From: Desulforegula conservatrix Mb1Pa
Lineage (GTDB): Bacteria; Desulfobacterota; Desulfobacteria; Desulfobacterales; Desulforegulaceae
DNA length: 64,000 nt
Direction of reading: 5' to 3'
Assembly: GCF_000426225.1 (NCBI RefSeq)
Contig: NZ_AUEY01000006.1
Coordinates: forward strand, 1 to 64,000
Every line of letters starts with the position of its first letter. Positions within the stretch are counted from its first letter, which is position 1. The position numbers were made by a program, and so were the translations under genes. The notes beneath the pieces are model-generated. The model saw nothing but the letters and a program-made list of their open reading frames with translations, ran no database searches and was not told where the DNA came from. Positions 6,041-63,708 of the stretch are shown one piece after another.

Positions 6041-6174
6041 TGATGGACTCGCAAAAAATCTAAAAATGGCTTAAGCGTCATGCCGGACCTGATCCGGCAC
6101 CCTGTAATTTCAGCCACTTATGGATTCCGACCTGCACCGGAATGACGGAAATCGGACTTTTTGCGACTTTGTCA
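6041..6174 (+). repeat. MITE-like element
   Basis: This is a full-length copy: TGATGGACTCGCAAAAAATC at the left, GACTTTTTGCGACTTTGTCA at the right, hairpin 1 GCCGGACCTGATCCGGC and hairpin 2 ATTCCGACCTGCACCGGAAT. The flanking five bases (AATTA and TTTAT) do not match. It lies between the convergent CoA-transferase and AsmA-like genes. Confidence 0.75.
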
Positions 6175-53228: not shown

Positions 53229-53555
53229 TCTCACAAAAAACCTGGCAAAGAAAACTTTCTATACGTCCGCCCCAAAACAACTTCCAAAACAAATTGGATA
53301 ATGGTATTTTATTGAAAATTCAAAGCCTCTATCATTAATTGACGGTCTCGCAAAAAGTCAAAAAAAGGCATCGGCGTCTTGATGGGCTTGATCCGTAATC
53401 CAGCTCTGCTGGATTCAGCCTCCCCGCTTTTCACAGGGACGGGCCGCGGCGGAATAACGGAAATCGGACTTTTTGCAACCTTGTCATTAATTAAAAGGTG
53501 GATCTCTTTTTAGCCGGCACCATCCCTTCAACCACATCTTCCCCAGGGGGACCAA
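53229..53555. other. Gap before the chemoreceptor gene
   Basis: It holds the MITE copy at 53340-53486 and short flanks. No gene is seen. GGGGGACC just before 53556 is the ribosome site of the chemoreceptor gene. Confidence 0.45.
53340..53486 (+). mobile_element. MITE-like element, variant subfamily, with 5-bp target duplication
   Basis: This 147-bp copy runs from TGACGGTCTCGCAAAAAGTC to GACTTTTTGCAACCTTGTCA. It is flanked by the exact repeat TTAAT (53335-53339 and 53487-53491). Hairpin 1 is damaged (ATGGGCTTGATCCGTAAT). The second hairpin region is longer and includes CTTTTCACAGGGACGGGCC, shared with the copy at 48165-48311. Confidence 0.75.
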
Positions 53556-55274
53556 ATGAGACTAAGTGATATAAGCGTAAAATGGAAAGTTCTGGCAGTA
53601 GCCATTGTTGGCCCTGTCATCATTGCATTTGTTTTTGCGTCATACAGGATTGCGGACATAAGAGCTGCCGCAGAGGATGAAATTCTGTCAAAAAGCCGGG
53701 CCTTTGTTTTTATGGCAGAAGCTTCCAGGGATGAAATGGCTAAAAAAGTTGAACTTGGAATAATCAAGCCTTTAAATGAAATTCCAAAGGAAAATCTTGT
53801 TCAGGCGGTTCCGGTTGTAACTGCTATTCAAACTGTTGCAAGAAATGCAAAAGAGGGGAATTTTGAATTCAGGGTACCAAAAGAATCACCAAGAAACCCG
53901 GCAAATCAGCCAACTGAATTAGAGAAAAAAGTGCTTGATGAAATTGCGGCTGGAGGCCTGACAGAAAAAATAATAAAAGAGAGCGATAAAATAAGGTATT
54001 TCAGACCGATCAAGCTCTCAAAGGACTGCCTTTTCTGCCACGGTGATCCAAAAGGAGAAAAAGATCCCATAGGCGGAACAAAGGAAGGCTGGAAAGAAGG
54101 AGAAATCCATGGAGCCTTTGAAATAATAAGCTCCCTCGAAGAAGCAAATAATAAAGTAGCAAAAGCAAGAATCGCAACATTTTTATGGACAGCAATTATA
54201 GCAGGACTAATAGGCGGAATAAGCTGGCTTTTCGTAAAACTGAATCTCATATTACCTCTGACAGCGGCAAAAAAGCAGATAGACTTTATCAGCTCAGGAG
54301 ATCTCACCCATACTGCAGAAGTAAAGGGCAAGGATGAATTAGGCCAGATGAATTCAAATCTTAATTTAATGACCCAAAATATGGGGAAAATGATAACAGC
54401 CATACGCGAAGCCTCAGGAAGCGTTATAGGCTCTGCCTCAGACCTGTCAGATGTTTCCGGCTCGCTTAAATCAAGCAGCGAATCTACGCTCTCCCACCTC
54501 AACACAGTTGCAGCTGCGTCTGAAGAAATGAGCGTGAATATGAACTCAATAGCCGCGGCAGTGGAAGAGACATCAACTAATGTAAGCATGGTGGCAAACT
54601 CTGCTGAACAGATGGCTTCAACAATAAATGAAATAAGCAGAAATACGGAAAACGCCAAATCAATATCCCAGAAAGCGGTAATTCAGGCAGATGACGCTTC
54701 AAAAATCATGGCTGCCTTGGGAGGAGCTGCGGCACAGATAGAAAAAGTAACTTCCATGATTACTGATATTTCAGAACAGACAAATCTTCTTGCTCTGAAT
54801 GCCACAATCGAAGCGGCAAGAGCCGGAGAAGCGGGAAAAGGCTTTGCTGTAGTCGCAAGCGAAATAAAACAACTGGCGTCCCAGACAGTGGCAGCCACAG
54901 AAGAAATCAAAAAAAGGACAGAAGAAATCAAAGGCTCTACATCAAGTGCAGCATCCCAGATCAGTACAATTTCAAATGTAATCAATGATATCAATGACAT
55001 AGTATCAACAATTGCCGCAGCTGTCGAAGAACAGGCCGCAACCACCAAAGAAATAGCAAACAATGTTGTCCAGGCTTCACTAGGCACCCAGGAAGTAACG
55101 ACAAACGTATCCCAGGCATCTCTGGCAACCGGTGAAATAACAAAAGATATTGCAGGAGTTCATTCTGAGGCAGAAGGAATTGCTTCAATGAGTGCCCAGG
55201 TAAACCTAAGTGCAAAAAAACTTAGTGATATTGCCCTAAGCATGGATGAAATTGTAAAAAAGATAAAAATTTAA
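53556..55274 (+). CDS. Methyl-accepting chemotaxis protein with heme-binding (Tll0287-like/DUF3365) sensor
   Basis: This encodes 572 residues. A membrane helix (about 10-32) is followed by a periplasmic domain to about residue 205, which holds CLFCH near residue 156-160, a CXXCH heme c attachment site, within the pattern [18 protein letters not shown] typical of Tll0287-like domains. A second membrane helix ([20 protein letters not shown]) leads to HAMP (about 230-283) and the cytoplasmic signalling domain, with the hairpin tip [20 protein letters not shown]. It should sense a redox or gas signal, or a ligand of heme, and control CheA. No other che gene is nearby. A perfect terminator follows. 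Confidence 0.93.
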
Positions 55275-55293: not shown

Positions 55294-55319
55294 AAGGCAG
55301 GGAGAATTCTCCCTGCCTT
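55294..55319 (+). terminator. Terminator of the chemoreceptor gene
   Basis: AAGGCAGGGAGAA followed directly by its complement TTCTCCCTGCCTT, a perfect 26-bp palindrome, then a run of T. It begins 20 bp after the stop codon. Confidence 0.88.
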
Positions 55320-55354
55320 TTTTTATCGTTGGTTTATGAAGGGTTTTCAAATAT

Positions 55355-55488
55355 TGATGGTCTCGCAAAAAGCCAGAAAATGGCTTTAGTGTCATATCGG
55401 ACTTGATCAGGCATCCAGTAATTTCAGCCACTTCTGGATTCCGGCCTGAGCCTGAATGATGTGAATCTGACTTTTTGCGGCCTTGTCA
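55355..55488 (+). mobile_element. MITE-like element with near-perfect target duplication
   Basis: It runs from TGATGGTCTCGCAAAAAGCC to GACTTTTTGCGGCCTTGTCA. The flanks are AATAT and GATAT, matching at four of five bases. Both hairpins carry mutations (TATCGGACTTGATCAGGC and ATTCCGGCCTGAGCCTGAAT). It lies between convergent genes. Confidence 0.75.
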
Positions 55489-55532
55489 GATATTAGGATG
55501 ATAATTAAACACGGTCGTTTTTATTAGAAAAG

Positions 55533-56630
55533 CTACCCGTTATAAATAGCCTCAAAAATAACAACCAGAATATCCCCGGGAATAAGATCAGTATCTGCCT
55601 GAACTTTCCAGTCCACCTTTATGGTCTGGGCATCAACCACCTCCACGTCCGCATATATTTTCTCGCCGGTAACAGCCGCCGCTTCCAGCGATGAATCATC
55701 CATAACCCTGTATTTAGTGATCCTTGTATGATCTTTTTCAAACTGGGCCGACCATGTCCACAGGGCAGCATCTCCTGATCTTTTGACCTTTTCGAATTCA
55801 GGAATATCAAATACGTTTATTACCGCAGATTTAAAATCATCGGCCACATCGACAGAATAACCACCCGTCATTGTAGTATATTTGTCAATTACTGCAAAAA
55901 GGCCTTCCAACCGGAAAACAACGGTAAGATTCCATGACTGACCGCATCTGACGGATTTATCAACAATACACCCCTTGGGCCAGAGAACCCATTCACCGTT
56001 TCTAAATGTATATTCAGCCCCACCTGTAAAATACTCGCCGGCCACAAGTGGAGGGATGTCAGTGTCGCCTGTGTCAGGAACAGTTTCATCGACCGCAATA
56101 AGAAAGGTGCTTAAATGGTCTGTTTTAATACCGGTCCTGTTTGACGAAAGCGACCTGAATGACGTGGCCTGTTTCTCCCACTTCATGGTTTGAGGATTGA
56201 AATAGAAAACCGCCGCTTTTTTTTCAGAGCCCTGGCCTCCATCAAAAAAACCGTCATTATCCGAATCTTTATATGGGAGAAAAATCGAGGCTTTTCGCTT
56301 GAATTGCTGCCCGTGGGGGTAAAAACTCACGCAAGGGCCTACCTGTTTGATTCCTGAAGGAAGTGGCCCAGGAAGGGATGAACTATTTATTGAAAACTGT
56401 ACGTCGGACAAAACAGCCTCTTCAGGAATGACTATTTCAGCTCCTGACAGTTCCGAAGAAGGATCTGACACAGACAGCGAACCGCCTGAACGGCCGATTA
56501 TCTGCCCTGATCTTACTTCTTCCTCCTCTTCTTCCACACCTCCCACAGAAGATGAAGATGAACAGGAAAAAATGGAAAGGCCCAATAAAATCATGCAGAC
56601 CACTGATAGGGGCCCGCCGATTTTTTCCAT
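55533..56630 (-). CDS. ZU5-like domain surface lipoprotein
   Basis: This encodes about 365 residues from the ATG at 56630; a TTG at 56711 would add 27 residues without a ribosome site and overlap the next gene. A signal segment (LSVVCMILLGLSIFSC) ends in a probable lipobox. A serine and glutamate linker follows. Residues 40-185 have the ZU5-like pattern: GGSLSVSDPSSELSGAEIVI, PEEAVLSDVQFSI and CVSFYPHGQQFKRKASIFLP. The remaining 180 residues form a beta-rich domain of unknown type. ZU5-like domains occur in cell-surface and adhesion proteins. Its start lies 1 bp after the stop of the 123-residue gene, so the two are probably translated in series. Confidence 0.75.
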   Translation of the reverse strand: MEKIGGPLSVVCMILLGLSIFSCSSSSSVGGVEEEEEEVRSGQIIGRSGGSLSVSDPSSELSGAEIVIPEEAVLSDVQFSINSSSLPGPLPSGIKQVGPCVSFYPHGQQFKRKASIFLPYKDSDNDGFFDGGQGSEKKAAVFYFNPQTMKWEKQATSFRSLSSNRTGIKTDHLSTFLIAVDETVPDTGDTDIPPLVAGEYFTGGAEYTFRNGEWVLWPKGCIVDKSVRCGQSWNLTVVFRLEGLFAVIDKYTTMTGGYSVDVADDFKSAVINVFDIPEFEKVKRSGDAALWTWSAQFEKDHTRITKYRVMDDSSLEAAAVTGEKIYADVEVVDAQTIKVDWKVQADTDLIPGDILVVIFEAIYNG

Positions 56631-56631
56631 A

Positions 56632-57003
56632 TTATATAATGATGCCAAGCTCTTCAAGAGTCTTGCCTTGATAGAATTCTTCATAAGCTTTATAAAACTC
56701 GCCGGATCCAAATTTTTTATAAATATCCATTATTATGCACTCGGTTTCCACCACATCCCATCCGTCATTTCTTATCTGGGTTGAGAGCATCATTCTTACA
56801 AGTCTTATCTTTGCATCAAGATATCTTATGGCTCTTTCTATTTCTGTAACCAGATCTTCATCAAGTTCATCAGGAATTCCTGAAAGATGGCCGCAAGTAT
56901 CCATAAAGATTTTAGGCTGGTCTTTAGGAGGAATTCGTTCAAGACCCTTAAGTATTGGTGAAGGAAGTTTGGATTTGATTCCATTAATTAATTCTGGGCA
57001 CAT
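56632..57003 (-). CDS. Hypothetical helical protein
   Basis: This encodes 123 residues without signal peptide or membrane segment. Most of it is predicted helical and charged: ELDEDLVTEIERAIRYLDAK, IRLVRMMLSTQIRNDGWDVV. MDTCGHLSGIPDE near residue 34 and TECIIMDIYKKFG are other landmarks. I do not recognise the family. AAAGGAG lies 12 bases before the start, a rather wide gap. The gene is directly followed by the ZU5-like lipoprotein gene with no gap, so they form an operon. Its coding-like composition makes it likely real. Confidence 0.65.
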   Translation of the reverse strand: MCPELINGIKSKLPSPILKGLERIPPKDQPKIFMDTCGHLSGIPDELDEDLVTEIERAIRYLDAKIRLVRMMLSTQIRNDGWDVVETECIIMDIYKKFGSGEFYKAYEEFYQGKTLEELGIII

Positions 57004-57198: not shown

Positions 57199-60100
57199 TC
57201 AAAATAATTCATGTTCTCCGGCCTTCCACACTTCTATCCTGAAAGCCTCAAACTCCCTTTCGAGTTCATCCACCACATCATCTGAAGGCATGATACCTTG
57301 GAGCCTGGATATATTTTCAATTTCAAAAGCCTTGGACTGTATGCGCAATGCACCGACATTGGCGGCAGTGCCTTTTATCATATGTGCGACCTCGGCAGTT
57401 TTTTGAATATCCTGCTCCGCTACCGCATTACGCAGGGAGGCAACATATGCAGAGCCTTCACCGGAAAAAGTTTCGGTTACGCTTATGGCAATATCCTCAT
57501 CCCCCATGACCCTTTCAAGCAATGATTTTCTGTCAAAAACAGGAACTGTTTCTGAAACTGCCTGCCCATTCATCCCAGAATCAGGCGCCAGAGCGTCGGC
57601 CTTTTTTTCTTCTTTTGACAATCCCGATATTTTAAGCCATTTCAATACCACAGAGTCAAGAACCTCCGGCTTGACAGGTTTGGGGATATAATCATTCATT
57701 CCCGAGGACATGCATTTTGCAGCATCACCCTTAAGTACATTTGCTGTCATCGCAATAATCGGAATGAGAGGATTCAGGACACCTGTCAAAGAATCCCTTA
57801 TGGCCTTTGTCGCTTCATACCCGTCCATCTGCGGCATATGGCAATCCATTAAAACAAGATCATACGCTTCCTTTTTAAGAATATCCACAGCTTCAAGCCC
57901 GTTTGCAACTGCATCTGCCGTGTAGCCTTTTTTTCTGAGTATTGAAAGAGCCACTTCCTGATTTATCAGGCTGTCTTCAACCACCAGAATTTTTCTATGC
58001 GCCTTTTCAATGCCGGCCACATCATTATTTACAGGAATTCCATGATTCCGGTCATCCATATCCTTCATATTTGAAAGACATTCCAGCAGACTTGAACGCC
58101 TCACAGGTTTTGAAAGAAATGCGGAAAAAAAACCATTTTTGTATTCCTCTTTTTCTCCGGATTCCTGTCCGGGGTATTTCATATTTATGAACGAAGTGGA
58201 TTCAAAAATCTTTGAAGTTATTCCCTCAATCAAAGGATCCTGACATTTGTCATCATCAGAAGTACCGATAATTGCATAATCATAAGGTTTTCCAGCATTA
58301 ACAGCATTTCTGAGTTCATTGATTACCGAATTTCGATCAGATACAAGGGTAACAAAGCAGCCGAATACAGAAAGGTATGATCCTATGCTCCTCCTGCATT
58401 TTTCATTATTATCCGTCACTATTACTTTCAGCCCTGAATAATCATACAAAGGCCCGGAATATTTATGAATTGATGTTGCAAAAGAAATATCAAAAACAAA
58501 ACTGGCGCCTTTTCCTAAAACGCTTTCAAGCCAGATTTCTCCGTTCATCATTGTGACCAGTCTTTTTGTAATTGCAAGACCGAGCCCGGTTCCGCCGTAT
58601 TTTCTCGTGGTGCTTCCGTCAGCCTGGGCAAACGGCTCAAAAATAGCTTCAAAACGATCTTCAGGAATACCTATCCCGGTATCAGAAACACTAAATCTTA
58701 TTTTTACGGATTTCTCATCGGATTCGCTCACCCTGGCCCAGATATAGACTTCGCCCTGACTTGTGAATTTAATGGCATTACCTGCAATATTAAGAATAAT
58801 CTGCCTCAGCCTGTTTTTGTCTCCCTTCACAAATGCAGGAATCAAAGGATCTATGAATGGAATTAGCTCTATTCCTTTTTCACCTGCCTTTACCGCAAGG
58901 ATCTCACTTGTGTCTTCAATAAGTTCTCCAAGGTTGAAATCATCAAATTCAAGCTCCACCCGGCCCGCTTCAATCTTGGAAAAATCGAGTATGTCATTTA
59001 TGAGATCAAGAAGTGTCTCGGCACTTTTCCGTGCTATCATTGCGTACCGGTGCTGGTCTTCAGACAAACGGGTGTCAAGCAGAAGCCCGGTCATTCCGAT
59101 CACGCCATTCATAGGGGTGCGGATCTCGTGGCTCATATTCGCAAGGAACTCGCTTTTGGCCATGCTTGCAAGCTCGGCCTTAACTGTCATGCTGTTTGAC
59201 ATCCCTATGGCTTCCTCCAGATCCTTGTTCAGGTTTTCAAGATCTGACTTTGCTTTAAGGAGGTCATCTTCAAAAGTCTTTCTCTCAACTGCTGCGCCAA
59301 GAATTCCGGCTGCGGTTCTGAGAACATCAATTTCGACCTGGGCCCATTCTCTTTCACCTTTACACTCATCAAATCCTATCATTCCCCACCAGTTGCCCTT
59401 GACAGTGATGGGAATGACAAGAATGGACTTTATGGATTGCATCTCAAGCATCAGCCTCTCTTCTTCGGGAAAAATGCTGATGTTTCCTGAAACAATATTT
59501 CCAGATGCAAGAATATTCTCCCATCTCCCAAAACCCTGTTTTTTCCAGGAAAAATCATACAGCATGGGATTATTCATCTGGGATTCGATGCCCTCTGCAC
59601 ACCATTCGGCGATCTGATCAGTTAGAATCCCCCTGGATTCTGATAAAGAATTTCTAAAAACATAAATCCTGCTGAAACCAGAAGCTTCACCAATTATCCC
59701 GAGAAGCCCGGAAAGATCGGCAACCCAGTCGTCTGATCTGAGAAGCAGTTCGGCAAGAAGACTGACCGCTCCAAGTAAATTATCATGTCTCAGCAGCTCT
59801 ATTTCCGTATTTTTTCTGGACGTTATGTCCCTTGCTGCGGCATAAACCACATTCCCGTTCAGGCTCGCTCTCCATTCAATCCACCTGTATGAATTATCCT
59901 TATGCCTGTATCTGTTGACAAAATTTAGAATCTGCCTTTCCTTTTTAAGAGTGGCCATGATGTTTATGGTGGCGACCCTGTCATCAGGATGTACAAATTC
60001 TATATATCTTCTGTTCAGAAGCTCTTTTAAAGGATAACCGAGTGAGTTTTCCCACTCACTGTTCAGGCGCCTGAAGTACCCGTCCGTATCTGCGATACAG

Positions 60101-63100
60101 AAAAGATCCAGAGCATTGGAAAAATAATTATCCAGCTCCTCGGTTTTTTGCAGAAGAGCCATTTCAGACAGTTTTCTGTCTGTCACGTCCCTGAAAACGA
60201 CAGCTGCGGCGTAGAGTTCACCTGAAGAATCGCAAATAGGAGAAATGACGGATTCCGTATATATTGGCTGGCCGCAGGCCATCAATGAATCCTCGCGTCT
60301 TATATGCTCTCCTGATTCAAAGACTTTTTCAATCCTTCCAACCAGAAGCTCATAAAGCCAGGACACATTTTCAAGGCATTGTTTCATACCGCAGCAACCT
60401 TCAGGTGCCAAACCATTTTTCCCTGAATATACATATGCCGCCTTATTAGCATATAAACACGCAAGATTTTTGTCCCATATCCAGATGCAATCGATACTTG
60501 ACTCAAACACAGCGCGAAAACGGCCTTCGCTTTCCTTGAGTCTTCCCTCTGCCAGCTTCCTTTCAGTTATGTCCAGATGAGTGCCCAAGGCCCTCACTGG
60601 CCGCCCATCACCGTCTCTTTCAATAACCTTGCCCCTTGCCTGGATCCAGACCCACTTGCCGGACTTGCTTCTGAGTCTGTATTCATTCTCGTATATAAGG
60701 GTCTTTCCCTGGAGATGCTGTTCAAGAGCTTTGGTGACATAGGGCTTATCATCGGGATTAAGAAGATTTTCCCATGTAGCGATATGCGGGACAAGATCAG
60801 CTTCAGAATATCCGAGCATATCGAACCATCTTTCGCTTGCAGAAACTTTTCCGCTTGGTATATGCCATTCCCATATCCCCAGACCTGTGCCTGAAATAAC
60901 CATCTGGAGACGTTCTTTTTTTTCGTTCAGCTCATCCATGGCAAGACGCATTTCAGTGTCGTCCATGGCGTACCCGAGTAGGGACAAAATCTTTTCATTG
61001 CACCTTAAAACTTTTATAAATACATAAAGCCATCTTACATCCCCGCCTTTTTTAATCATCCGGCAGCAAAGCTCAAAACTCTCAACCCCGGAATCACAAG
61101 TGTCCTTAATCCGCTTTTTTACGGTCTCATAATCGTCCTTGTGTATTATGTCTTCAAAAATAACAATACCAGATATAAAATCGTTCTGATCATATCCTGT
61201 AAGTTGCAGGACATTGGGGGATACATATTCAACAGGCCAGCCCTCAACGGCTTCCCACTTGAAAACCACTGTCGGGCCACCAACAAAAAGCCCTCTTTCA
61301 GTTTTAAGGGCCTCTTCCGCAATATATCTTTCGGTCATGTCATGGGCGGAGCAGAATATATGCTCGACATTATTCTGGTCATCCAGTTTGGGAAATCTGG
61401 AAATGGAAAGAAGTCTTCTGGCACCGAAAGAGTCGGATATCCACTCATCGGTATGAAGAGGAATTTTCTCCCTGAAAATCAGTGCATTCAGTTCAATCCA
61501 TGCATCAGCGACCTCTTTTGATATGAATTCATGGATATCCCTATATTCCATATCAGCCGGGGCATGGCCGGCAAATACACCGTGCGCCAGGTTGACTATT
61601 CCATATGTGGATTCGTCCTCGAAATACCATATCTGAATATCGATACTATCAAGCAGAAGTCTCTGCTCACGGGCAGTTTCCTGAGCAGAGGCCCTCGCAT
61701 TTTCAGCCTCGGCTTCCGCAATCATAGCCCTCGCAAGATTATCTTTGAGGTCTGAGGTCAGATCCGAAGCAAGGATTTCTGCCCTGTGCCTTGCCCACAA
61801 TACCGAATCTATATAAAGGCAGAAAAATACGGTAAGAAGAAAACCAACAGGAATTATTATAAAGTGGATTACGTTGCTGCGGATTGATCTGAAATCATCG
61901 GAAGGGCTGGCTTTTATTTCCCATTTTCTGTCAAGCACGGAATAAGGCTTAAGTCCAACAGCCGAATCAGCTAAAAAATCTTCGTGCTCGTATAGTACGT
62001 AAGGTTTTGCAGATGGGTCAGTAATATCCTCTATTCTTATTTCAATATCGTGATCTTTTTTGTGGCTGCCTGCCCTTTTTACAAGTTGTCCTATGTCAAA
62101 AAAACCAACTGCAAATCCGTTAAGCTTTTCAAGCCTTTCCTCAACTATGGAATAATCGCCAGCGCCTTTATATACCGGTGATATGGCAATAAATTCGTCC
62201 TTCAATCCGTCAATAAGCATATTACCAGGCAAAAGAACGCCAATCCCGGTCTCGGCTGATTTTTTAAGCAAGGATTTTAATCCTGGCCTTTTATAAATAT
62301 CAAGCCCCGCAAGCTTTTTTGATGGATCTGAAGATTCGATATAATATACAGGAAAAATGACTGCGGCCCTGTTTTCTTGAACCGTTCCTGCATCATCAAT
62401 ACCAGGCCACACTCTAAAGTCTGTATTACCAGAAGCCCTGGACTTTTCTTCCCATTCCGGGAAATCTTCGGCCTTAATCCTCGGAATCCATAATACTGTA
62501 TTCAAACCTGTCTTTTTAACGAATGGTTTCACAAAAGACTTGAAACTACTTGCCTGAAGATTCTCTTTCTCCTCAATAAATCTTTTGACAGATTCAATTT
62601 CCGAACATATTTCATCTGTATTTCTTTGAAGCTCTTCAGCAAAAGATTTTGCAAGATCAAGAAAGCCGAGTTCTCTGCTGATTTCAGACTGTCTCCTTGC
62701 CTCAAAAAATATACCTAATGTCACTCCAAAACCTATGATCATTATTAATGCCAGATTGATAAACCAGGGACGCCCCATCTGAAAACCGGCCATCCTGATA
62801 TCAACCAGGAGTTTTTTTGTGATTAAAAAAGCGCCTGCCGCTGCTGCTGCGGAAACAAGCAGACCAAGCCCGAGCCAGAATGATGAAAGAAGGGCCGAAA
62901 ATCCTGACATTGATATGTCTCTTGCAGATGCTATGGTGAACACAAACATGGACTCACCCGTAACAGCTGGAATTATCTCATCGATTATTATCCTGTCCTT
63001 CTCGATAAGAATCTTTTTCTTCCCCATGATCTCTCTTTTTACATCATGACATTCAGGCCGGGCTCCATCCGCCCCTCCGCAATCAGTAATATCAATACTG

Positions 63101-63708
63101 GCTGAAAAATCACTGGACAGGGAGTCCAAAAAAGGTCTCTCAAGAAAACGGCCCATCAATATTGTCCCGACGGGGGGGCCTTCTCCACTGCTGGTAAGGA
63201 TAGGCATGGAAGATACAATGAGCGGTCCCTGGGATGTAGACATCAAGCCTTTGATTTTTTTGATATTTGCCGGTGAATTAAGAAGAAAGGATTTAAAATC
63301 AGGGCTGCTTCCTGAAAAAATATCAAGTTTTATATGGCCGCCCTTTTTACTGGAATAAATTCCTCCGTGAACAAGCCTGCCTTCAAGATCAAATATGAGA
63401 ATAAGATTGATTCCTGTGGCCTGCTCAAGAGTTGTCCAGTCGAAATTTGATTTTATAAACTCCTCGTTCGGTTCATTCACAAAACTGTACATATCGTCCC
63501 AGTTGGCCCAGTCCGAGTTCAGTGTGTTCAGGCTGTCAATTTCCTTTCGTATCGCGCTGGAAATTCTTCTGGCATTATCAATGGCGGACTGTTTTTCAAG
63601 TCTTTCAAAGGCTGAAAACACGACTTTTTCCTGAATCCACCAGACCGAAAAAAGAAACAGGATAAATACGATAAATACAGCCACGATAATTTTGATATAT
63701 TTGAGCAT
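57199..63708 (-). CDS. Giant hybrid sensor histidine kinase (CHASE4-CHASE-5xPAS-GAF-HisKA-HATPase-REC-REC-HPt)
   Basis: This encodes 2169 residues. Two extracytoplasmic sensors lie between membrane helices: a CHASE4-like domain (about 50-210, with LNSDWANWDDMYSFV) and a CHASE domain (about 335-590, with TVLWIPRIKAEDFPEWEEKS). Five PAS domains (about 680-1290) and a GAF domain (about 1320-1470) follow. The kinase has NMSHEIRTPMNGVIG (His near 1525), SDTGIGIPEDRF and GGTGLGLAITKRL. The first receiver lacks its Asp (DYAIIGTSDDD) and is probably inactive; the second is complete (LVLMDCHMPQMDGYEA, Asp near 1953). A C-terminal HPt domain has AHMIKGTAANVGAL (His near 2108). It should run a full phosphorelay to a separate response regulator. 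No partner gene is adjacent. Confidence 0.94.
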   Translation of the reverse strand: MLKYIKIIVAVFIVFILFLFSVWWIQEKVVFSAFERLEKQSAIDNARRISSAIRKEIDSLNTLNSDWANWDDMYSFVNEPNEEFIKSNFDWTTLEQATGINLILIFDLEGRLVHGGIYSSKKGGHIKLDIFSGSSPDFKSFLLNSPANIKKIKGLMSTSQGPLIVSSMPILTSSGEGPPVGTILMGRFLERPFLDSLSSDFSASIDITDCGGADGARPECHDVKREIMGKKKILIEKDRIIIDEIIPAVTGESMFVFTIASARDISMSGFSALLSSFWLGLGLLVSAAAAAGAFLITKKLLVDIRMAGFQMGRPWFINLALIMIIGFGVTLGIFFEARRQSEISRELGFLDLAKSFAEELQRNTDEICSEIESVKRFIEEKENLQASSFKSFVKPFVKKTGLNTVLWIPRIKAEDFPEWEEKSRASGNTDFRVWPGIDDAGTVQENRAAVIFPVYYIESSDPSKKLAGLDIYKRPGLKSLLKKSAETGIGVLLPGNMLIDGLKDEFIAISPVYKGAGDYSIVEERLEKLNGFAVGFFDIGQLVKRAGSHKKDHDIEIRIEDITDPSAKPYVLYEHEDFLADSAVGLKPYSVLDRKWEIKASPSDDFRSIRSNVIHFIIIPVGFLLTVFFCLYIDSVLWARHRAEILASDLTSDLKDNLARAMIAEAEAENARASAQETAREQRLLLDSIDIQIWYFEDESTYGIVNLAHGVFAGHAPADMEYRDIHEFISKEVADAWIELNALIFREKIPLHTDEWISDSFGARRLLSISRFPKLDDQNNVEHIFCSAHDMTERYIAEEALKTERGLFVGGPTVVFKWEAVEGWPVEYVSPNVLQLTGYDQNDFISGIVIFEDIIHKDDYETVKKRIKDTCDSGVESFELCCRMIKKGGDVRWLYVFIKVLRCNEKILSLLGYAMDDTEMRLAMDELNEKKERLQMVISGTGLGIWEWHIPSGKVSASERWFDMLGYSEADLVPHIATWENLLNPDDKPYVTKALEQHLQGKTLIYENEYRLRSKSGKWVWIQARGKVIERDGDGRPVRALGTHLDITERKLAEGRLKESEGRFRAVFESSIDCIWIWDKNLACLYANKAAYVYSGKNGLAPEGCCGMKQCLENVSWLYELLVGRIEKVFESGEHIRREDSLMACGQPIYTESVISPICDSSGELYAAAVVFRDVTDRKLSEMALLQKTEELDNYFSNALDLFCIADTDGYFRRLNSEWENSLGYPLKELLNRRYIEFVHPDDRVATINIMATLKKERQILNFVNRYRHKDNSYRWIEWRASLNGNVVYAAARDITSRKNTEIELLRHDNLLGAVSLLAELLLRSDDWVADLSGLLGIIGEASGFSRIYVFRNSLSESRGILTDQIAEWCAEGIESQMNNPMLYDFSWKKQGFGRWENILASGNIVSGNISIFPEEERLMLEMQSIKSILVIPITVKGNWWGMIGFDECKGEREWAQVEIDVLRTAAGILGAAVERKTFEDDLLKAKSDLENLNKDLEEAIGMSNSMTVKAELASMAKSEFLANMSHEIRTPMNGVIGMTGLLLDTRLSEDQHRYAMIARKSAETLLDLINDILDFSKIEAGRVELEFDDFNLGELIEDTSEILAVKAGEKGIELIPFIDPLIPAFVKGDKNRLRQIILNIAGNAIKFTSQGEVYIWARVSESDEKSVKIRFSVSDTGIGIPEDRFEAIFEPFAQADGSTTRKYGGTGLGLAITKRLVTMMNGEIWLESVLGKGASFVFDISFATSIHKYSGPLYDYSGLKVIVTDNNEKCRRSIGSYLSVFGCFVTLVSDRNSVINELRNAVNAGKPYDYAIIGTSDDDKCQDPLIEGITSKIFESTSFINMKYPGQESGEKEEYKNGFFSAFLSKPVRRSSLLECLSNMKDMDDRNHGIPVNNDVAGIEKAHRKILVVEDSLINQEVALSILRKKGYTADAVANGLEAVDILKKEAYDLVLMDCHMPQMDGYEATKAIRDSLTGVLNPLIPIIAMTANVLKGDAAKCMSSGMNDYIPKPVKPEVLDSVVLKWLKISGLSKEEKKADALAPDSGMNGQAVSETVPVFDRKSLLERVMGDEDIAISVTETFSGEGSAYVASLRNAVAEQDIQKTAEVAHMIKGTAANVGALRIQSKAFEIENISRLQGIMPSDDVVDELEREFEAFRIEVWKAGEHELF

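Follow-up and report, generated by a model that had tools for sequence, protein, structure and literature searches.

The 64,000-nt stretch of the Desulforegula conservatrix Mb1Pa genome analysed here (the window; positions 1 to 64,000 of contig NZ_AUEY01000006.1, our contig C6) carries a gene that raises the question of whether a chemotaxis receptor bears a covalently attached heme outside the membrane and, if so, which signal it would read and to which pathway it would report. The gene is an ATG-initiated open reading frame (nt. 53556..55274, forward strand) encoding a predicted heme-c chemoreceptor of 572 a.a, in which Pfam and hydropathy give, from the N- to the C-terminus, a transmembrane helix (TM1), a Tll0287-like (sCache_heme) domain, a second transmembrane helix (TM2), a HAMP domain, and a methyl-accepting chemotaxis protein (MCP) signalling domain. 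The features of the locus are as follows:

53556..55274, + strand: receptor gene (open reading frame, Pfam domains)
53583..53645, + strand: TM1, approximately a.a 10–30 (19-residue Kyte-Doolittle means >1.6 between a.a 5 and 35)
53664..54128, + strand: Tll0287-like/sCache_heme periplasmic domain, a.a 37–191 (Pfam; AlphaFold2 model of a.a 30–202)
53736..53738, + strand: Met61 in the N-terminal helix, candidate distal heme ligand (clade conservation)
54027..54041, + strand: heme c attachment motif C158-L159-F160-C161-H162 (alignment, 49/49)
54108..54110, + strand: His185 in the last strand, candidate ligand or heme-pocket residue (clade conservation)
54171..54245, + strand: TM2, approximately a.a 206–230 (hydropathy)
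54246..54383, + strand: HAMP domain, a.a 231–276 (Pfam)
54645..55118, + strand: MCP signalling hairpin with tip Glu425 (Pfam, tip motif)
55294..55319, + strand: intrinsic-terminator-like stem-loop, 11 pairs with a T tail (pattern match)

Each of the three Pfam matches exceeds its cut-off: PF11845 (Tll0287-like) at 98.4 bits against 24.1 (a.a 37–191), HAMP at 35.2 against 25 (a.a 231–276), and MCPsignal at 107.4 against 34.6 (a.a 364–521). The MCP hairpin has the conserved tip motif with Glu425, from which 147 a.a run to the C-terminus. Hydrophobic windows at a.a 5–35 and 201–236 flank the Tll0287-like domain and point to a TM-sensor-TM-HAMP topology, with both helices predicted from hydropathy; given these two stretches, the sensor domain would lie outside the inner membrane. 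The preliminary description had read this gene as a CLFCH motif in a Tll0287-like periplasmic domain joined to HAMP and MCP parts, and Pfam, the motif, and hydropathy agree with that reading. This is the only Tll0287-like match in the host genome, which is rated 96% complete.

Upstream of the receptor gene lie a TPP enzyme gene and an open reading frame with no Pfam match, and downstream, two frames with no Pfam match precede a large hybrid kinase; judged by Pfam, none of these flanking genes indicates NO, heme, or chemotaxis. Given the terminator-like stem-loop after the gene (the region has five such patterns, whereas shuffled sequences average 3.0) and the Pfam-unrelated neighbours, the receptor gene is probably transcribed alone. 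The hybrid kinase (nt. 57199–63708, minus strand, 2169 a.a) comprises CHASE4, CHASE, several PAS, GAF, HisKA, HATPase, REC, and Hpt domains. The two frames preceding it (nt. 55533–56711 and 56632–57003, minus strand; no Pfam match at E 0.001) overlap one another, and the start of one of them may have been wrongly chosen. We also noted a dispersed repeat of ~150 bases, two diverged copies of which (nt. 53338–53493 and 55353–55495; 72–76% alike) lie on either side of the receptor gene and point the same way, with at least 40 further matches in the genome (40 of 480 candidates scored). The copy at nt. 55353–55495 has inverted ends, and the repeat is possibly MITE-like.

The heme attachment motif occurs once in the protein, and its Cys158 and Cys161 are the only cysteines in the 572 a.a. 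Across an alignment of 49 family domains, drawn from the window, its order, other Thermodesulfobacteriota, Nitrospirota, and one unplaced bacterium, the sole invariant columns are Cys158, Cys161, and His162 (49/49). Every one of the 56 frames with a BLAST match to the domain (17 + 39; locus L139 duplicates L058) likewise contained CxxCH, and 48 of them were aligned with the window sequence, partial domains and most lower-scoring matches being omitted. A chance occurrence of CxxCH is ruled out by this invariance and by the motif in every matched frame. The host genome also encodes the means of attachment, as a ResB protein (327 bits) adjoins a Cytochrom_C_asm protein (CcsA-type, 180 bits) on contig 13, and contig 16 encodes another Cytochrom_C_asm protein. 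ResB and CcsA constitute the system II pathway of cytochrome c maturation.

An AlphaFold2 model of a.a 30–202 (mean pLDDT 95.1) displayed a Cache fold in which a helix-and-loop insert precedes the last strand (E116-124, H127-133, and E155-164 in model numbering), and the motif (C129, C132, and H133 in the same numbering) sits inside helix H127-133. The best match of the model in the PDB was Tll0287 (5b82; Foldseek E 7.1e-7), for which structural comparison gave a Z of 14.6 over 151 residues, followed by the WalK Cache domain with a Z of 8.6. A single-sequence search found 5b82 weakly (E 0.22), and a profile of the 49 family domains found it at E 5.3e-15. A search of a viral structure library gave nothing at E ≤0.001. 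Two heme sensors of Geobacter sulfurreducens, GSU0582 and GSU0935, were absent from the seven PDB sequences matched by the 49-domain profile and from the best 50 entries of the structural comparison, and the Geobacter sensors were recovered neither by a search with a histidine-kinase member as query nor among further family members of the phylum. Their absence from the structural listing is perhaps explained by their having been solved as swapped dimers.

The family itself was named in a preprint of February 2026 as sCache_heme, equivalent to DUF3365, Tll0287-like, or PF11845 (PMC12889525). There, CxxCH is reported in 99% of >5,000 sCache_heme domains, MCP fusions are listed, and the Desulfobacterota are among the phyla named as rich in signalling fusions. 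Other Cache domains bind small ligands (PMC12889525), which is the basis for a reading in which no heme is attached and the window receptor binds such a ligand as an ordinary Cache domain. We consider this highly improbable and reject it, given the two cysteines and the histidine conserved throughout the 49 domains, the cytochrome c maturation genes in the genome, and the heme carried by relatives (PMC12889525; PMC8396549). The sensor domain is thus very likely to carry a covalent heme. The central proposal of the preliminary description, a chemoreceptor with an extracytoplasmic c-type heme, is thereby supported by the family assignment and the conserved CxxCH, by the structural similarity to Tll0287, and by the maturation genes, the heme being predicted.

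A tree built from the 49 domains places the window in an 18-row clade (support 100/99) with members from the Desulfobacterales, the Desulfovibrionaceae, the Desulfomicrobiaceae, and one unplaced bacterium, the closest full-length relative being L021 (53%). The tree program warned that the joining of the Nitrospirota rows to this clade is a long-branch join that may be false, and nothing here rests on that join. The family is widespread, with matches at E 0.001 or better in 53 of 96 genomes among relatives (host included) and in 59 of 118 genomes of a phylum sample. Two residues are particular to the clade, a Met in the N-terminal helix (Met61) and a His in the last strand (His185), each present in 18/18 clade rows and in 0/31 of the other aligned rows. 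When the clade was enlarged to 22 distinct loci, Met61 was seen in 21 (L220 has a Met one residue earlier) and His185 in all 22; however, His185 in the added loci provides no independent test, since L199 was picked by a pattern requiring it and L218 to L220 were chosen by eye (L203 duplicates L218 and was left uncounted). By analogy with Met60 of GSU0935, we infer that Met61 may be a labile distal heme ligand; His185 is likewise a candidate, either as a ligand or as a residue of the heme pocket. Two clade members, L140 and L020, have MCPsignal and Tll0287-like matches and no HAMP match in Pfam. Separately, CxxCH proteins with a weak PF11845 match around the motif were seen in two further loci (L209:594-2270 and L211:239-2083), and these possibly represent another heme-c sensor family with similar placement.

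As to the pathway served, the preliminary description had seen no che genes nearby and had assigned the receptor to a remote pathway. The genome fits this reading, as contig C6 holds no CheW or CheR match and several che clusters lie elsewhere. The entire genome gave 31 MCP match rows (in ~29 frames), together with 16 rows for CheW, 8 for CheR, and 3 for flagellin. The length from hairpin tip to C-terminus is exactly 147 a.a in 13 of the 22 MCPs measured, the window receptor among them (the sample being the window receptor and 21 others among the ~29 MCP frames; those dropped had a tip off-pattern or ran off the stretch). MCPs with a 147-a.a hairpin end are found in or near the che clusters of contigs C9 and C12. 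A cluster on contig 1 comprises cheA, cheW, cheB, cheR, and a HEAT/REC gene, and contains none of the 31 MCP rows.

Two Desulfomicrobiaceae loci, L057 and L059, have cheA and then cheW after the orthologous MCP. In L059, the receptor orthologue, with another MCP frame 3 kb before it, ends at nt. 5716 and is followed by a cheA frame from nt. 6109 (first ATG at 6157) and by cheW. The L059 CheA is 51% alike to the host contig-1 CheA over 1094 columns (1022 bits; next 286), and the best host match of its CheW is the contig-1 CheW (58%). Against the contig-1 CheA, the L057 CheA likewise scored 765 bits in one frame and 164 in another, and the contig-5 CheA, the one other CheA tried, reached 271; this cheA behind the heme receptor (L057:6101-9411) is possibly broken or misassembled, as it reads in two overlapping frames. 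With the host Che proteins as BLAST queries, cheA and cheW were found in 2 of 21 clade loci, with a CheW-like frame in one more (L199), although 12 of the 21 are <3.6 kb with little flank, so that the absence of che genes there says little. We place the CheA partner of the receptor in the contig-1 cluster with a somewhat better than even chance; L057 and L059 come from one family, so the second of them adds only slightly to these odds, and the C9 and C12 clusters are possible alternative partners.

We consider it likely overall that the gene encodes an inner-membrane sCache_heme chemoreceptor in which a change at the distal heme face is passed to the MCP hairpin and on to a CheA encoded elsewhere. 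The domain order, motif, predicted fold, conservation, and presence of maturation and che genes are read from the sequences themselves. One heme c would be held by Cys158 and Cys161 of the periplasmic Cache domain, attached by the ResB/CcsA-type machinery, with His162 as the proximal iron ligand; heme attachment is here borrowed from relatives, as are NO binding and the on/off switching of a Met ligand. The trigger would act at the distal face, where the heme would either change its redox state and exchange a weak ligand or bind NO, and we infer Met61 or His185 as the distal ligand. The distal change would shift the N-terminal helix relative to the sheet and be relayed by TM2 and HAMP to the MCP hairpin, which would alter the activity of the remote CheA, most likely that of the contig-1 cheA-cheW-cheB-cheR cluster. 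The signal and the CheA partner are likewise proposals of ours.

The preliminary description had named redox potential, oxygen, NO, and sulfide as possible signals. Redox state and NO are favoured by work on relatives, and nothing in the analysis or in the literature consulted supports sulfide for this receptor, though PMC8396549 mentions sulfide metabolism for Tll0287 itself. That a Met (or His) ligand is bound to the heme in its reduced state and released when the heme is oxidised, as has been proposed for GSU0935, so that the cell follows ambient redox potential and not a gas, is a reading we hold to be a serious possibility, if short of probable. It accords with the restriction of Met61 to the clade (18/18 versus 0/31) and with the host's place in the Desulfobacterales. 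A Tll0287-like Cys/His ligation from the receptor's own chain is ruled out, as the chain has no cysteine outside CxxCH, and a Met60/His144 switch is reported for the Geobacter sensors, as are potentials of −156 and −251 mV (PMC8396549). However, the homology of Met61 and Met60 is drawn by analogy, His185 or water could be the ligand instead, and L220 lacks a Met at the exact position.

Alternatively, the heme may bind NO tightly and not O2, with the cell avoiding (or following) nitric oxide, which we regard as possible on more tentative grounds. A signalling-type sCache_heme protein of P. azotoformans has the properties of an NO sensor and not of an O2 sensor, in that it releases NO slowly (koff 6.25e-4 per s) and does not form a stable complex with O2 (PMC12889525), and NO displaces Met60 in the reduced Geobacter sensors (PMC8396549). 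Yet the release kinetics come from one protein of another lineage, the binding of NO to an open or labile heme is not proof of function, and no c552-type nitrite reductase exceeds the cut-off in the host genome (PF02335 gave one partial match of 22 bits). That the receptor senses oxygen, a function long suggested for DcrA of Desulfovibrio, is unlikely: work cited in PMC3460858 describes DcrA as a methyl-accepting protein with a c-type heme for sensing oxygen or redox potential, but DcrA is no more than a possible member of the sCache_heme family, and the sCache_heme proteins tested form no stable O2 complex (PMC12889525). O2 would nevertheless oxidise the heme, so a response to it could run through redox. 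By analogy with relatives, then, NO and redox state are both backed and would be mutually compatible, and O2 would act, if at all, via oxidation.

A separate arrangement was noted in the Nitrospirota, where, in 11 of the 12 loci with an MCP frame (L120-L122, L124, L126-L128, L131-L133, and L135), the MCP is preceded at a distance of ~1 kb by a stand-alone sCache_heme frame. These are from a total of 13 loci, 12 of which have an MCP frame by pattern; L123 is cut short upstream and L130 has neither frame. Judged by eye, the stand-alone proteins are exported. A response regulator and cheW lie between the heme frame and the MCP in L131 (by Pfam) and in L128 and L135 (by eye), and cheA follows the MCP in L126 (by Pfam). 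We take this gene order to resemble a Pil-Chp-type cluster, and it suggests that some stand-alone members of the family serve chemosensory genes. Stand-alone sCache_heme members are given likely redox roles in PMC12889525, and among the papers listed by a literature search on Nitrospira with heme sensors and chemotaxis, none deals with this arrangement, judging by titles and abstract openings.

Set beside known systems, the window receptor shares with the sCache_heme signalling fusions the Pfam family, the CxxCH insert before the last strand, the two TM helices, HAMP, and the MCP part (PMC12889525), and it has nothing outside the family definition, although its clade has Met61 and His185, and the 31 other aligned domains have neither. 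GSU0582 and GSU0935 are heme-c MCPs, the latter with the Met60/His144 switch (PMC8396549); they have the same order of TM, a periplasmic heme-c domain of ~135 residues, TM, HAMP, and MCP (PMC3460858, which also cites DcrA) and belong to the family (PMC12889525), but Met60/His144 is reported for them, whereas the role of Met61 is our proposal. Tll0287 of Thermosynechococcus is alike in fold and heme motif; however, it has Cys/His ligation (PMC12889525), for which the window receptor has no spare Cys, and its 191-residue chain in 5b82 lacks the HAMP and MCP parts. DcrA of Desulfovibrio vulgaris, compared by description only, is similarly a heme-c methyl-accepting protein of a sulfate reducer. 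Because heme-c MCPs and sCache_heme fusions are already described, the receptor is a further, ordinary member of a described class, and by itself it leaves the picture of the family unchanged. What is new here is the supported Met61/His185 clade, the relatives with a che-adjacent receptor gene, and the stand-alone arrangement in the Nitrospirota.

For a sulfate-reducer lineage, the locus provides a heme-c receptor with clear test residues (Met61 and His185) and a named candidate CheA, and redox taxis and NO taxis could therefore be distinguished with single mutants. More speculatively, and on balance doubtfully, the Met61/His185 clade may form a functional subclass of heme-c chemoreceptors in sulfate-reducer lineages, in which the heme is six-coordinate and redox-gated and can be opened by NO, and which is tied to one particular che pathway. 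In the Nitrospirota, the same type of heme domain may act as a separate periplasmic protein that reports to the adjacent chemosensory genes. If this were true, some of the stand-alone heme-Cache proteins, for which redox roles are currently considered likely, would be detachable sensors.
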